Shown here one piece after another: positions 5,153-30,043 of a stretch of 43,109 nt of DNA; within the stretch, counting starts at the first letter, position 1, and every line of letters starts with the position of its first letter. The notes beneath the pieces were generated by a model. The model was given only the letters and a program-made list of their open reading frames with translations, was not told the DNA's origin and ran no database searches. The position numbers and the translations under genes are program-made. This DNA is from an uncultured Mollicutes bacterium (lineage in GTDB: Bacteria; Bacillota_I; Bacilli_A; Acholeplasmatales; Anaeroplasmataceae): positions 1-43,109 of the forward strand of contig CAMWKG010000014.1 of NCBI GenBank assembly GCA_947174785.1, in the 5' to 3' direction.

Positions 5153-5181
5153 AAAAGGCATAGTTCGACACTATGCCTTTT
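5153..5181 (-). terminator. Intrinsic terminator of the uL15-like gene
   Basis: AAAAGGCATAGT (5153-5164) pairs perfectly with ACTATGCCTTTT (5170-5181) around a 5-base loop. On the minus strand the stem ends in T-rich sequence, just after the stop codon at 5189. Confidence 0.85.
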
Positions 5182-5188
5182 ATCCCTT

Positions 5189-6358
5189 TTATTTTACCTT
5201 ACGGACTTCTCCGCCAGTCAATACAATCATTTTAATAGCATCAATAGAATAATCCTGTGCTTCAATAATAAGGGGTTTATCTAAAACACCTCTAGCTAAA
5301 ACTTTAATATAATCCACCTTAGAAGATATCAGCTTCTTTTCCTTTAGGGTCTCAAGATTTACTAAGTCATCAGCATTAAAGTTTTTAGATAAAACATCAA
5401 TATTGATAATATCCTTTTTACTATATACTGTATTTTTATTAGAAGGGCTTTCCTCCACTTGAACATATTCTAATGCTGAATCATCTGTAATCAATTGCTT
5501 TGCCTCAGTAATTGTAACATTTTTACGAATGATATCTCCGACATTAGCTTGCTCAACAACAGTACCTTCTGTAACTTCATCTGAGGTATAAACCTTAATT
5601 AAATTATCTTCAATCAACTCTTCCTTAGTTTGCTTAGGAATAATAATTTCTTGTGGCTCTACTTCTTTACGAGTTAAGTTGTTTTCTGTAAAAATAGTAT
5701 TTAAAAGCTCTAAAACATATTTTTGCTTTCTGTCAGATGTAATCTTCATAAGTGTAGGAGTCTTTACAAAACGCTTTACTTCACTTAAATCAATCACATG
5801 ATATTTTGTTTCCTCAAATCTCTTTGGATCAAATGCATAGGCAACACATAACTTTTTACCCTTAAATACAAGCATAGCAAATGTATTTCTTCCTAAATAA
5901 ATACGTTCTTGCTTCCAGCTTGTAGATGTCTTTACTCCGTAAGGACGAACAAAGTTGATGATATCACGATATTGCTGCTGAACCTCAGGAGAAGCTAAAA
6001 TAAGCTTTGCTTTAAAGCTATAATTATATTGAACAAAAACTTTTCTACCATTTACAACCTGAACTACACGTTCTGGCTCCTCTTCTTCTTGGAAATCATT
6101 ATCTTGTTCATCAGCATCCTCAATAGAAGATTCCAAATTATCTATTGTATTTTTTTCAACTACTGGTTCTGGCTTAACCTCCTCAGCAGGTTTTTCTATG
6201 ACTGTTTTCTTTTCTGTAGCTCTTGGCTTGTCTACTTTCTTAGAATAAGCCTTAGCAACCTTATTCCTTTTTGGTAGCTTAGCAAAAATTAACAACGCTA
6301 TTATTGCACAAGCTACAACTGCCCAAACTACAATGACGATTATTTCAGTTGTTCTCAT
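5189..6358 (-). CDS. Membrane-anchored protein with a ribosomal protein uL15-like C-terminal domain
   Basis: The protein has 389 residues. One N-terminal transmembrane helix (about 5-28) is followed by a lysine/glutamate/proline-rich linker (about 30-98). Next comes a globular domain (about 105-225, with YSFKAKLI, SWKQERIYLGR and KKLCVAYAFDPKRF) that I associate with an uncharacterised domain repeated in other Bacillota proteins. The C-terminus (about 316-388) reads like the end of ribosomal protein L15: INIDVL, VNLETLKEKKLI, DYIKVLARGVLDKPLIIEA, then AIKMIVLTGGEV. It is not the ribosomal L15 gene, because it lacks the basic glycine-rich L15 N-terminus and is membrane-anchored. The start ATG follows AGGAGG. 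Function is unknown. Confidence 0.75.
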   Translation of the reverse strand: MRTTEIIVIVVWAVVACAIIALLIFAKLPKRNKVAKAYSKKVDKPRATEKKTVIEKPAEEVKPEPVVEKNTIDNLESSIEDADEQDNDFQEEEEPERVVQVVNGRKVFVQYNYSFKAKLILASPEVQQQYRDIINFVRPYGVKTSTSWKQERIYLGRNTFAMLVFKGKKLCVAYAFDPKRFEETKYHVIDLSEVKRFVKTPTLMKITSDRKQKYVLELLNTIFTENNLTRKEVEPQEIIIPKQTKEELIEDNLIKVYTSDEVTEGTVVEQANVGDIIRKNVTITEAKQLITDDSALEYVQVEESPSNKNTVYSKKDIINIDVLSKNFNADDLVNLETLKEKKLISSKVDYIKVLARGVLDKPLIIEAQDYSIDAIKMIVLTGGEVRKVK

Positions 6359-6412
6359 TATATAAATCCTCCTAAAACTATATTTTAATTATATCATAAC
6401 ACACATAAAATG

Positions 6413-7006
6413 CTATATGAAAATTTCTGAAAATTCATCAATTTTTTGTAAAACCTCATTCATACCATACTTTGTCTCTGAAGAAGTTAGAATGAAGCTA
6501 TCATTTTCCTCTAGTTTTAAAGTTTCCATTATTAGCTTTTTATTCTTACTATACTCACTTTTTTTTACTTTATCTGCCTTGGTTCCGATGACACATACAT
6601 CCTTATGATAATACTTTAAGAATTGATACATTGTAACATCATCATTTGTTGGCTTATGCCTAAAATCAACCAAAAGAAAAACAAGCTTTAGGTGTGGTCT
6701 TCCGACAACATATTCTTCTATCATTTTCCCAAAGGTTGCCTTTACTGTTTTACTGACATTGGCATATCCATATCCAGGAACATCTATAAAAAAGATAGAA
6801 TCATTAATATGGTAAACATTTAAGGTCTGTGTTTTTCCGGGATTGGAAGAGGTTTTAGCAAGCTTCTTTCTGTTTGTCAAAGCATTGATAAACGAAGACT
6901 TTCCAACATTAGATCTACCACAAAACATAAACTCTGGTTCATTATGAGAAGGTAGTCCTGCATTTTTTACAGCAGATATAATAAATTCAGCCTTTGTAAT
7001 TACCAT
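6413..7006 (-). CDS. engB: Ribosome biogenesis GTPase EngB/YsxC
   Basis: This 197-residue TRAFAC GTPase has G1 GRSNVGKSS (30-38), G2 around NPGKTQTLN, G3 DVPGYG (75-80), G4 TKAD (142-145) and G5 TSSETKYG (174-181). The family is essential for assembly of the 50S subunit in Bacillus. Length is typical. The start codon overlaps the last 7 bases of the PHP gene upstream, so translation is probably coupled. The stop is TAG. Confidence 0.95.
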   Translation of the reverse strand: MVITKAEFIISAVKNAGLPSHNEPEFMFCGRSNVGKSSFINALTNRKKLAKTSSNPGKTQTLNVYHINDSIFFIDVPGYGYANVSKTVKATFGKMIEEYVVGRPHLKLVFLLVDFRHKPTNDDVTMYQFLKYYHKDVCVIGTKADKVKKSEYSKNKKLIMETLKLEENDSFILTSSETKYGMNEVLQKIDEFSEIFI

Positions 7007-8689: not shown

Positions 8690-11398
8690 TTACTCCGTTC
8701 TTAGAGCCACAACTGGATCCTTCTTTGCAGCAGATCTTGCTGGGATAACACCAGAGATTACCGTTAGGAGAATACTTACTAAAATCATAACTGCTGCTTG
8801 CCATAAAGGTAATGCTGCAATTGGTGTAACACCCGTAAGATTATCCACAATAATATTTAAAATTAAAGAAATAATATAGGTAACAATAATTCCAAATACA
8901 CCAGAGATTAGACCAATAATAAAGGTTTCAGCATTAAATAGATGTGTAACATCCTTCTTACGACCACCTAAGGAACGAATGACACCAATTTCCTTTACAC
9001 GTTCTACGACAGAAACATATGTGATGATTGCAATCATGAAGCAAGATACAACTAAGGATAAAGCTGTAAATGCAATCAAGGCCGTTGTAATGAGGTTAAT
9101 TAAACTATTGATCATATTTATCAATACCGCAATATTATCTGTGTATGTAATTTGTTCACGTTCTTCTGCTTTTAAGGTTACCATTTCTCCCTTACTATTT
9201 TTGAAGGTTAGAGTTTCATCCGAATTCCATGCATCTAAATGCTTAGTCACTCCATCCTTCAAATCAAAATTAATAGGATAGATAGAAATATCATTTGCAA
9301 TATCTGTACCACCTAATTGTCTTAAGGACAATGTTGTATACATAGCAGTCATAGAAGAACTGCTACCGCCTTCGCTTCCACCCATCATCATACTTAAAAG
9401 CTCAGACATAGCGTTTGCACTACCCACATAGCCTATAGCTGTTTTTGGTGTTTGCTCTCCACTAGGAGTATAATTGTAGGCATAGGTTATTGCCTTATTA
9501 TCAAATTGTCCATTTTCTTTAGTATACATTCCATAATAGGCTAAATCATTATCTATTAAATATTTTACAACCTCTGATTTCAATCCATCTTGAATAAACT
9601 TCTTAGCAAATGCTTCCGTATAGAAAAAGCCACTTGTCATACAGCCATAGGAAATGGAAGCCTTAGGCTTTAAAATCGCCTTAACCACAAGCTCTTGTCC
9701 TACTGCTTTATCCATTTCATGGTGATATTTAAATGGTCCTGAAAATGGAGTTTCAGCTTGCTTTTCATAAATCATATCATTAGGATAATAATAGAATTTC
9801 TTCCCAATCAATTCACTAAAGTCAAAACGATTCTTATCTATTTCTGGATTATAGCTTGGGTCATTTAAATGACGGAAGGTAGTATTGATAAATTGATCTT
9901 GCGTATAATATCCAAGCTGAGCCAACAATAAATCTGTTAATTCTTGATCACTATTGACAACAATCATAATTTCATTTTCTTTTGTTGCAATCTCATCACC
10001 ATATAAGAAATTATACTGACTTAAAATATAATCCTTATCATTAGGAGCCTGCTGGAAAACATTAGTAAGACCTGTAACATAGCTTGCATATCTTGAAAAC
10101 TCTGTTTCCCCTAATACTGAGGTATAAATGTTTTTGATTGCAGAAAGGCTAGTATTCTTCTTTTCTTCAGGCTTGTTGTAATGTACCTGATAATCTGTAT
10201 AGATGTTGTTTGTAACATCAATTCCATATTCTAAGCTAATTGCTGCAGCATAGCCTTCATCAATGCTATAAACATAGTCAATGTAATCTTGGGTAATATT
10301 ATTGCTAATTTGCATTTTCTCCATTGCTTGACCTTGAGTAATCAAACGTTTTATAACCTCATTGACATTGATTTTTCCATCAACAATATCTAAAGAGTTG
10401 ATTTTATCCATAGGGCTCATGCTTGTCATCATAGCGGATAGGTCATAAGCACTTTCTGATATTTGTACAGGATTTCCAGATAACATATCATCCTGCATAG
10501 AGGTAATATATCCTTGAACTCCACTAGAAACTGCTAACACACTAGATACGCCAATAATACCGATAGATCCAGCTACACAAATCAAAGCAGTTCTTGCCTT
10601 CTTTGTAAATAGATTTCTTAAGGAAAGCTTAAAAGCAGTCCAGAATGACATCTTAGCCTTTTCTTTCTTTTGAACTGAGTTTTCCTCTTCTATTTCAGTT
10701 TCTTTTTTCTCTTCTTCAAGAGTGTATGGATTAGAATCTGTTACAAGCTCTCCATCCAATAAACGTACTATACGTGTAGAATATTGCTTAGCTAAATCTG
10801 GATTATGGGTAACCATAATAACAAGCTTTTCTTGAGAAATCTCTTTGATAAGCTCCATAATCTGAATAGATGTTTGAGTATCTAGAGCTCCTGTAGGTTC
10901 ATCTGCAAGTAAGATTTCAGGTTCATTGACTAAAGCTCTTGCGATAGCAACTCTTTGACACTGCCCACCAGATAATTGATTAGGATGCTTGTTGTACTGT
11001 CCTTCTAGTCCAACACGATCTATGGCCTTCTTTGCACGCTCAATACGTTCTTCCTTTGTTAAACCTGCAATTGTAAGTGCTAGCTCTACATTTCCTAAAA
11101 TAGTTTGATGGGGAATCAAATTGTAGCTTTGGAAAATAAAACCTATTCTATGATTTCTATAGATATCCCAATCTCGATCTTTAAAATCCTTTGTACTTTT
11201 TCCATTGATGAAAAGATCACCTGAGGTATATTTATCTAGACCACCAATAATATTTAGCATAGTAGTCTTACCACAACCAGATGGTCCTAAAATAGAAACA
11301 AATTCATTTTCTCGGAAGGCTAAATTAATTCCTTTAAGTGCATGAACATAGGTGTCTGCAACCTTATAATCCTTTATAATATTTTCTAATCTTAACAT
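8690..11398 (-). CDS. ABC transporter, fused ATPase and MacB/FtsX-type permease
   Basis: The 902-residue protein joins an N-terminal ATPase to a permease. The ATPase has Walker A GPSGCGKTT (38-46), signature LSGGQ (142-146) and Walker B ILLADE (162-167) with PTGALD. A charged linker leads to one transmembrane helix (about 265-290). A large extracytoplasmic domain follows (about 300-740, with methionine-, serine- and glycine-rich stretches), then three C-terminal helices typical of FtsX permeases. MacB-type systems do mechanotransmission or peptide/drug efflux and act as dimers. It has no separate permease partner nearby and is followed by a winged-helix regulator. Substrate unknown. Confidence 0.9.
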   Translation of the reverse strand: MLRLENIIKDYKVADTYVHALKGINLAFRENEFVSILGPSGCGKTTMLNIIGGLDKYTSGDLFINGKSTKDFKDRDWDIYRNHRIGFIFQSYNLIPHQTILGNVELALTIAGLTKEERIERAKKAIDRVGLEGQYNKHPNQLSGGQCQRVAIARALVNEPEILLADEPTGALDTQTSIQIMELIKEISQEKLVIMVTHNPDLAKQYSTRIVRLLDGELVTDSNPYTLEEEKKETEIEEENSVQKKEKAKMSFWTAFKLSLRNLFTKKARTALICVAGSIGIIGVSSVLAVSSGVQGYITSMQDDMLSGNPVQISESAYDLSAMMTSMSPMDKINSLDIVDGKINVNEVIKRLITQGQAMEKMQISNNITQDYIDYVYSIDEGYAAAISLEYGIDVTNNIYTDYQVHYNKPEEKKNTSLSAIKNIYTSVLGETEFSRYASYVTGLTNVFQQAPNDKDYILSQYNFLYGDEIATKENEIMIVVNSDQELTDLLLAQLGYYTQDQFINTTFRHLNDPSYNPEIDKNRFDFSELIGKKFYYYPNDMIYEKQAETPFSGPFKYHHEMDKAVGQELVVKAILKPKASISYGCMTSGFFYTEAFAKKFIQDGLKSEVVKYLIDNDLAYYGMYTKENGQFDNKAITYAYNYTPSGEQTPKTAIGYVGSANAMSELLSMMMGGSEGGSSSSMTAMYTTLSLRQLGGTDIANDISIYPINFDLKDGVTKHLDAWNSDETLTFKNSKGEMVTLKAEEREQITYTDNIAVLINMINSLINLITTALIAFTALSLVVSCFMIAIITYVSVVERVKEIGVIRSLGGRKKDVTHLFNAETFIIGLISGVFGIIVTYIISLILNIIVDNLTGVTPIAALPLWQAAVMILVSILLTVISGVIPARSAAKKDPVVALRTE

Positions 11399-26063: not shown

Positions 26064-26387
26064 TTATTCTTGAGTTAAGCTTTCAGCAAATACTTTTATA
26101 AGTAGTTCAGAGGGAATACTTTGCCCCAAATAAATCTGCAGCATATCCTTAGGTGTAAATTTGTAATTCTGCAATTGCTTTTTGTATTTTTCCAATGCCG
26201 AAGCTTCAATATTTATATGATTCTTAAACGGAATCACTCGGACAAAGAGTGAACCAGAATAAAAGCTTGGCAAGCCTGCCCACAAGCGCGTTTCTAAAGA
26301 AGACACACTACTTCTTACTAAATTCACTATAGTATGGAATATCTCTTGTATTTCTTCAGGATACCTTTTTACATACTCATCAAACAT
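26064..26387 (-). CDS. DUF1801 (YdhG-like) protein
   Basis: The 107-residue single-domain protein shows the DUF1801 pattern: an N-terminal YPEEIQEIFHTIVNLVR helix, then W-x-G-x-P-S-F, and a basic strand around HINIEASAL. The family resembles the iron-chaperone-like frataxin fold in structure, but its role is unknown. The ATG follows AGGAGAGG. It lies 28 bases after the SAP/DUF6434 gene on the same strand. Confidence 0.82.
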   Translation of the reverse strand: MFDEYVKRYPEEIQEIFHTIVNLVRSSVSSLETRLWAGLPSFYSGSLFVRVIPFKNHINIEASALEKYKKQLQNYKFTPKDMLQIYLGQSIPSELLIKVFAESLTQE

Positions 26388-29860: not shown

Positions 29861-29881
29861 CTTAAAAACAAAAATTATTTT

Positions 29882-29992
29882 TAACTTCTCTCATCCAGAC
29901 TCTACTGTCGGTATAGGAATTTCACCTATTCATGCACTTATGTGCTCGCGGACTTTACCGCCGGTATGGAATTACACCAAACCCCGAAGTTG
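29882..29992 (-). promoter_or_regulatory. FMN riboswitch (RFN element) controlling ribU
   Basis: On the minus strand the conserved RFN pieces appear in order: CTTCGGGG, GGTGTAATTCC, ACCGGCGGTAAAGTCCGCGA, ATAGGTGAAATTCCTATACC, GACAGTAGAGTCTGGATG and AGAGAAG closing the first stem with AACTTC. FMN binding should favour the downstream terminator and shut off riboflavin uptake. Confidence 0.95.
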
Positions 29993-30043
29993 ATATTTAC
30001 TTGGTTGCAGGATAGTAATATTCCTTATCTTGCAAGTGCTCTA

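Follow-up and report, generated by a model that had tools for sequence, protein, structure and literature searches.

A predicted membrane protein of an uncultured Mollicutes bacterium carries a paralogue of the globular domain of ribosomal protein uL15

The window, by which we mean the whole stretch of 43,109 nucleotides analysed, from an uncultured bacterium of gut type, contains a gene for a 389-residue protein of composite structure. The gene starts with ATG and is separated by 54 bp from an engB/ysxC-type GTPase gene. The features of the locus are the following.

5189..6358, reverse strand: whole gene, 389 amino acids, encoding in order a transmembrane helix, a charged linker, a DUF5655-related domain, a conserved connector and a uL15-like domain (from the open reading frame listing)
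6368..6373, reverse strand: ribosome-binding site AGGAGG, 9 nt 5' of the ATG (direct sequence reading)
6287..6343, reverse strand: transmembrane helix, residues 6–24 (hydropathy 3.39 over 19 residues)
6041..6268, reverse strand: charged linker, residues 31–106, fast-evolving (amino acid identity 40–69%, compared with 73–87% in domain A)
5594..6040, reverse strand: domain A, residues 107–255, DUF5655-related, with a possibly YdhG/YjbR-like fold
5411..5518, reverse strand: conserved connector, residues 281–316, of the type V-x3-EA-x4-xD-x2-A-x3-V-x2-E (alignment of relatives and comparison with rplO)
5204..5410, reverse strand: uL15-like domain, residues 317–385 (Pfam PF00828, E = 2e-11; Foldseek matches to uL15 chains)
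5153..5181, strand not applicable: terminator-like hairpin of 12 pairs, just 3' of the stop codon (pattern scan)
6413..7006, reverse strand: engB/ysxC-type GTPase gene, next upstream (Pfam MMR_HSR1, E = 2.4e-19), listed for context only

The coordinates, domain limits and transmembrane helix given in a preliminary description of this DNA are correct, as is its account of a charged linker leading from the helix to a separate globular domain, here called domain A, which AlphaFold2 models with a mean pLDDT of 95.9. One K/R residue precedes the helix and five follow it, and by the positive-inside rule this K/R-rich flank would place the N-terminus outside the cell and the C-terminus inside. Profiles built from relatives define two mobile units in such proteins: domain A, of about 148 residues, and a uL15 unit of about 105 residues that includes the connector.

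The similarity of the C-terminal domain to uL15, proposed in the preliminary description, is borne out by profile searches, profile–profile comparison and predicted fold. The last 69-residue stretch (residues 317–385) matches Pfam PF00828 (Ribosomal_L27A, covering L15/L18e/L27A) over positions 1–71 of the 72 in the profile; the score of 44.6 bits exceeds the gathering cut-off of 21.5 bits and so places the protein in the PF00828 superfamily (uL15/eL18 fold). A single-sequence phmmer search of the PDB returned 50S L15 chains as the top matches (E = 4.7e-4), and in a profile–profile comparison with hhalign, 25 relatives aligned with 31 rplO sequences of the same class over 73 columns with a probability of 99.4% and E = 4.8e-21, compared with at most 13% for control pairs of unrelated profiles. 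The predicted fold agrees with that of uL15. The AlphaFold2 model of the uL15 unit has a pLDDT of 88.4, with about 95 within the uL15 part, and its Foldseek matches are bacterial and chloroplast uL15 chains (best E = 1.1e-5, probability 1.00), with a TM-score of about 0.6 of the 112-residue query. The C-terminal globular fold and the G-x-L-x-K and GG motifs are common to both. True homology to the uL15 globular domain is established for residues 317–385; chance resemblance is ruled out by the PF00828, Foldseek and profile–profile matches together with the dN/dS constraint reported below. Weak single-sequence Pfam matches to DUF3587 and PASTA were dropped because most relatives did not reproduce them.

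The protein also differs from ribosomal uL15 in several respects. The rplO equivalog profile TIGR01071 matches it over the second half alone (positions 68–143) with 37 bits, which is below the equivalog cut-off of 77.95 bits. A PF00828 search of the assembly found two places, an ordinary 149-residue rplO on contig 3 and the 5189–6358 gene, where the position of residues 317–385 scored 48 bits. Since the genome has its own ordinary rplO, the 389-residue protein, with its uL15-like domain joined to a transmembrane helix and domain A, is the product of a second, paralogous gene and not of a displaced ribosomal gene. A pseudogene or misassembled rplO fusion is ruled out by intact full-length relatives of the same architecture in several genera and in Clostridia, and by purifying selection. 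In a tree built from 72 columns, 24 units and 30 rplO sequences fall on opposite sides of a branch with 100/98 support, and do so in 100% of the bootstrap trees examined, with no grouping of units with rplO among them; being unrooted, the tree shows separation rather than direction or a single gain. The 24 rows of this uL15-paralogue clade come from Bacilli and Clostridia.

Ribosomal uL15 has a basic, Gly-rich N-terminal extension that enters the 23S rRNA. The genome's own rplO (L006) possesses it in the form GRG..GKT..GRGSKGQ..GFEGGQ, whereas it is absent from the 389-residue protein and from the aligned units. In its place stands another conserved segment, the connector, which occurs in most unit proteins and is absent from ribosomal uL15 in the alignment. 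A position-by-position comparison shows further that the columns conserved as basic in rplO are those that change most in the units. Column 87 is K/R in 30 of 31 rplO sequences and D/E in 22 of 25 units; column 84 is K in 26 of 31 rplO sequences, while 13 of the 25 units have E/D there and 7 have K; column 63 is K/R in 27 of 31 rplO sequences and mostly S or D in the units. Column 94 shows the opposite change, from E in rplO to K in the units, K79 is kept in all 25 units, and K59, R74 and K94 are gained. Over the last columns, from IKVLARG on, the mean net charge is +4.5 in rplO, +1.4 in the units and −1 in the 389-residue protein. The missing tail and the altered charge argue against docking in the uL15 site and, judging from sequence conservation, this uL15 copy most likely acts outside the ribosome, its capacity for rRNA docking presumably lost. 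The kept and gained basic positions make it possible that another face of the domain binds RNA.

Domain A occurs in one to three copies per protein. No Pfam family reaches its cut-off on domain A; PF18899 (DUF5655) has no match in the 389-residue protein and a single weak one (E = 0.037) among 30 domain A members, and a search of PDB sequences with the domain A profile found nothing. By hhalign, domain A matches a DUF5655 (PF18899) profile set over 114 columns with a probability of 97.0% and E = 1.1e-10 (controls low), the set consisting of five rows, three of which the domain A profile had first brought up, although Pfam independently names them DUF5655. The top Foldseek hits are structures of YjbR (2fki, E = 2.6e-3, TM 0.49), YdhG (2oc6) and 9t2w, and these hits are weak throughout (E = 2.6e-3 to 0.06, TM 0.39–0.49). 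Direct profile homology to the YjbR or DUF1801 sets is unsupported by hhalign (YjbR 0.2%). Domain A differs from DUF5655, YdhG-like (DUF1801) and YjbR proteins in its greater length, an extra C-terminal helix, an LIxxGLIK motif and tandem repeats, and it merits a family entry of its own. YjbR has a double-wing fold (PMC7641849) and YdhG has been described as frataxin-like (PMC10855754). DNA binding has been suggested for a YjbR-like fold, so no one function is settled for the fold class.

Domain A appears in varied company. It is found in proteins with an ectodomain and a transmembrane helix, and it is rare, occurring in 8 of 291 genomes, in the class of one of the Clostridia metagenome-assembled genomes (MAGs) mentioned below. 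Two further proteins of the same genome contain it: one (L038:1471-2400; G000 contig 24, ~9560-10489) combines domain A with a CBM20-like starch-binding domain (E = 4e-5) and has no predicted transmembrane helix, and the other (L039:1-2052; G000 contig 3, ~75950-78001) is an EAL-domain protein of the c-di-GMP phosphodiesterase type with a long coiled-coil region followed by a C-terminal domain A. A 1049-residue protein (L032:127-3273) has three nearly identical copies behind an N-terminal part that resembles signal peptidase I, with no Pfam hit. Distant relatives of domain A (L052, L053, L054) combine a weak NucS_C or HSDR_N-like nuclease domain with a C-terminal DUF5655. Within the window, a 124-residue frame at 26181–26381 on the reverse strand matches DUF5655 with 23.4 bits, below the cut-off of 24.

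A class-wide search found full-length relatives within the genus at 62–85% identity, and many other proteins with one or both domains. Those of the close relatives that carry names are MAGs assigned to Anaeroplasmataceae and Mollicutes. The order transmembrane helix, linker, domain A, uL15 unit recurs in two MAGs labelled Clostridia, at 36–37% identity, and in a further genome (L049) that belongs to the same class as one of these two. The uL15 unit has been reused in modular fashion. Most of the unit proteins examined have at least one transmembrane helix N-terminal of the unit, four have domain A without a transmembrane helix, and six are soluble and without domain A; the unit also stands behind a long K/A/E-rich coiled coil with no transmembrane helix. 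Unit proteins thus comprise membrane proteins, soluble proteins with coiled coils and forms in which the unit is the tail of a surface protein, and relatives have Big_3-like and other extracellular-type regions on the far side of the helix.

Of 296 near-complete genomes in the class, 30 gave two or more matches to the unit profile, a count in which the matches may include divergent or duplicated ones. All 13 sampled genomes of the source genome's family are among the 30, the remaining 17 belong to a few scattered families, and the order's other two families, as sampled, contribute none. Plasmid and phage records gave no matches to the unit, and on this ground a mobile element or phage gene was ruled out.

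The uL15 part shares 75–97% amino acid identity with its counterparts in four congeners, with dN/dS of 0.009–0.088 (three estimable pairs; the fourth was saturated). The corresponding dN/dS ranges are 0.095–0.152 for domain A, 0.26–0.37 for the linker and 0.22–1.05 for the transmembrane helix. The uL15 part is under purifying selection, and no other large part is as constrained in any of the comparisons that could be estimated. Since its fold is kept and so strongly constrained, the uL15-like domain probably has a specific partner.

We compared twenty gene neighbourhoods of 12–19 kb. The adjacency to engB, which the preliminary description had pointed out, holds in the window and in close congeners but is not conserved beyond them: engB, a PHP gene and several other neighbours are common to close congeners only, one of which has two extra genes between engB and the unit gene. 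On the basis of synteny we reject an engB operon as a conserved functional pair outside this group. In three genomes of another family (f7), genes for soluble proteins with a coiled coil and a uL15 unit lie directly before rpsL-rpsG-fusA-tuf (L123 8475-9149, L124 8985-9752, L125 8772-9401). The gap to rpsL is 250–350 bp and contains a promoter-like site (11/12) in the two genomes scanned, which makes co-transcription of the unit gene with rpsL doubtful; in the same two genomes the unit gene sits 22–38 bp behind a peptidase M32 gene. In another genome (G122) the unit gene precedes infC and rplT on the same strand. Unit genes adjoin truA in G316 and, with an integrase between, in G384; thrS and a dnaI-like gene in G227 and G261; leuS and LCP in G028; Wzz/CpsD-like genes in G146 and G350; atpC in G185; and pilus genes in G158. 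Translation genes are frequent near unit genes without being universal. As a raw tally this amounts to a hint, such genes being common conserved neighbours in small genomes, but the soluble relatives beside rpsL-rpsG-fusA-tuf or infC-rplT make some link with translation possible. In the two genomes of family f21 the gene for the protein with the uL15 unit (L132, L137) has Wzz/CpsD-like capsule genes as neighbours, which suggests that the protein serves the envelope in these genomes.

These results lead us to propose that the 389-residue protein acts in the cytoplasm as an adaptor tethered to the membrane, with its uL15 domain exapted, and is not a component of the ribosome; we consider this somewhat likelier to be right than wrong. 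The transmembrane helix would anchor the protein with the remainder in the cytoplasm, the charged linker would give reach, and domain A and the uL15-like domain would bind partners, the latter probably keeping some cytoplasmic protein, or possibly RNA, at the membrane. A cytoplasmic tail may likewise hold partners in related surface proteins. With the tail gone and the charge altered, the partner is more likely to be non-ribosomal. Some observations fit the adaptor less well. The translation genes beside relatives are unexpected for a purely non-ribosomal role, the DNA binding proposed for the YjbR-like fold would point to a nucleic-acid partner, and the basic K79, K59, R74 and K94 could serve RNA binding by another face; moreover, the argument about rRNA contacts draws on conservation and not on contacts mapped in a solved ribosome.

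The preliminary description had suggested that the ribosomal fold links ribosomes or rRNA to the membrane; the homology and the fold on which it built stand, whereas the link itself appears unlikely, though it is the leading alternative to the adaptor. In such a scheme the uL15-like domain would dock on the 50S subunit, on assembly intermediates lacking uL15, on rRNA or on r-protein mRNA, and bring them to the membrane or to EngB. The true uL15 fold, the engB gene next door in the window and close congeners, the soluble unit genes before rpsL-rpsG-fusA-tuf in three genomes and before infC/rplT in a fourth, and the tRNA-modification or aminoacyl-tRNA synthetase genes (truA, thrS, leuS) adjoining other units are all consistent with it. 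Against these stand the missing rRNA-binding tail, the change from K to D/E at column 87 and the common E/D at column 84, the loss of engB adjacency outside close congeners, and the gap, promoter-like site and nearby peptidase M32 gene of the f7 arrangement. Further units are found in settings of capsule/LCP, ATP-synthase or pilus genes, and translation genes carry the weight of a hint for the reasons given above. A narrower form, in which a membrane-anchored uL15 mimic docks either on r-protein transcripts or, within incomplete 50S particles, on a uL15 partner that is protein or RNA, seems to us quite improbable; if true, a group of Bacilli would assemble or synthesise ribosomes at the membrane.

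The protein might instead be a membrane-tethered binder or regulator of nucleic acids, with domain A binding DNA and the uL15-like domain assisting or dimerising. We judge this distinctly unlikely: YjbR is the best Foldseek hit of domain A and DUF5655 is fused to nuclease-like domains in relatives, but the structural match is weak and the profile–profile match to YjbR nil, YdhG has been described instead as frataxin-like, and the fusions of domain A to EAL and CBM20 fit a general interaction role equally well. That the module of domain A and uL15 unit couples surface or capsule machinery to the cytoplasm, as the tail of an envelope organiser, is very improbable for the 389-residue protein, which has five residues before its helix and therefore no ectodomain; soluble unit proteins also speak against it. 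Such a role would suit the f21 unit proteins, which have a signal-peptide-like helix, an ectodomain and a transmembrane helix and are encoded beside Wzz/CpsD-like genes together with an LCP-like or PHP-phosphatase-like gene (by sequence reading), as well as the unit gene next to LCP in G028 and the relatives with Big_3-like and other extracellular-type regions across the membrane.

Ribosomal proteins are usually regarded as tied to one job. Events in which ribosomal folds were put to use outside the ribosome are known. Other bacterial membrane proteins, of the YqjD/ElaB type, have been proposed as ribosome anchors. They resemble the adaptor proposed here in having a single transmembrane helix and a cytoplasmic part, a likeness of layout and not one from comparing their sequences, and to our knowledge they have no uL15 domain. 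Literature searches on DUF5655, the uL15 family name and uL15 domain fusions, with most subscription literature outside their coverage, returned no description of the uL15-paralogue clade, the connector, the pairing with domain A or the membrane forms. The globular half of uL15 has been copied, has shed the tail that enters rRNA and now serves in membrane and coiled-coil proteins of an unnamed family; this makes a clear case of exaptation, in a family present in 13 of 13 sampled genomes of one bacterial family and patchy elsewhere. Because PF00828 would label them, automatic annotation likely misnames unit proteins as ribosomal protein uL15, and such mislabelled units would confuse marker-gene counts in metagenome bins. 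Elsewhere in the window, an FMN riboswitch lies on the reverse strand at 29879–29995 (109 bits).
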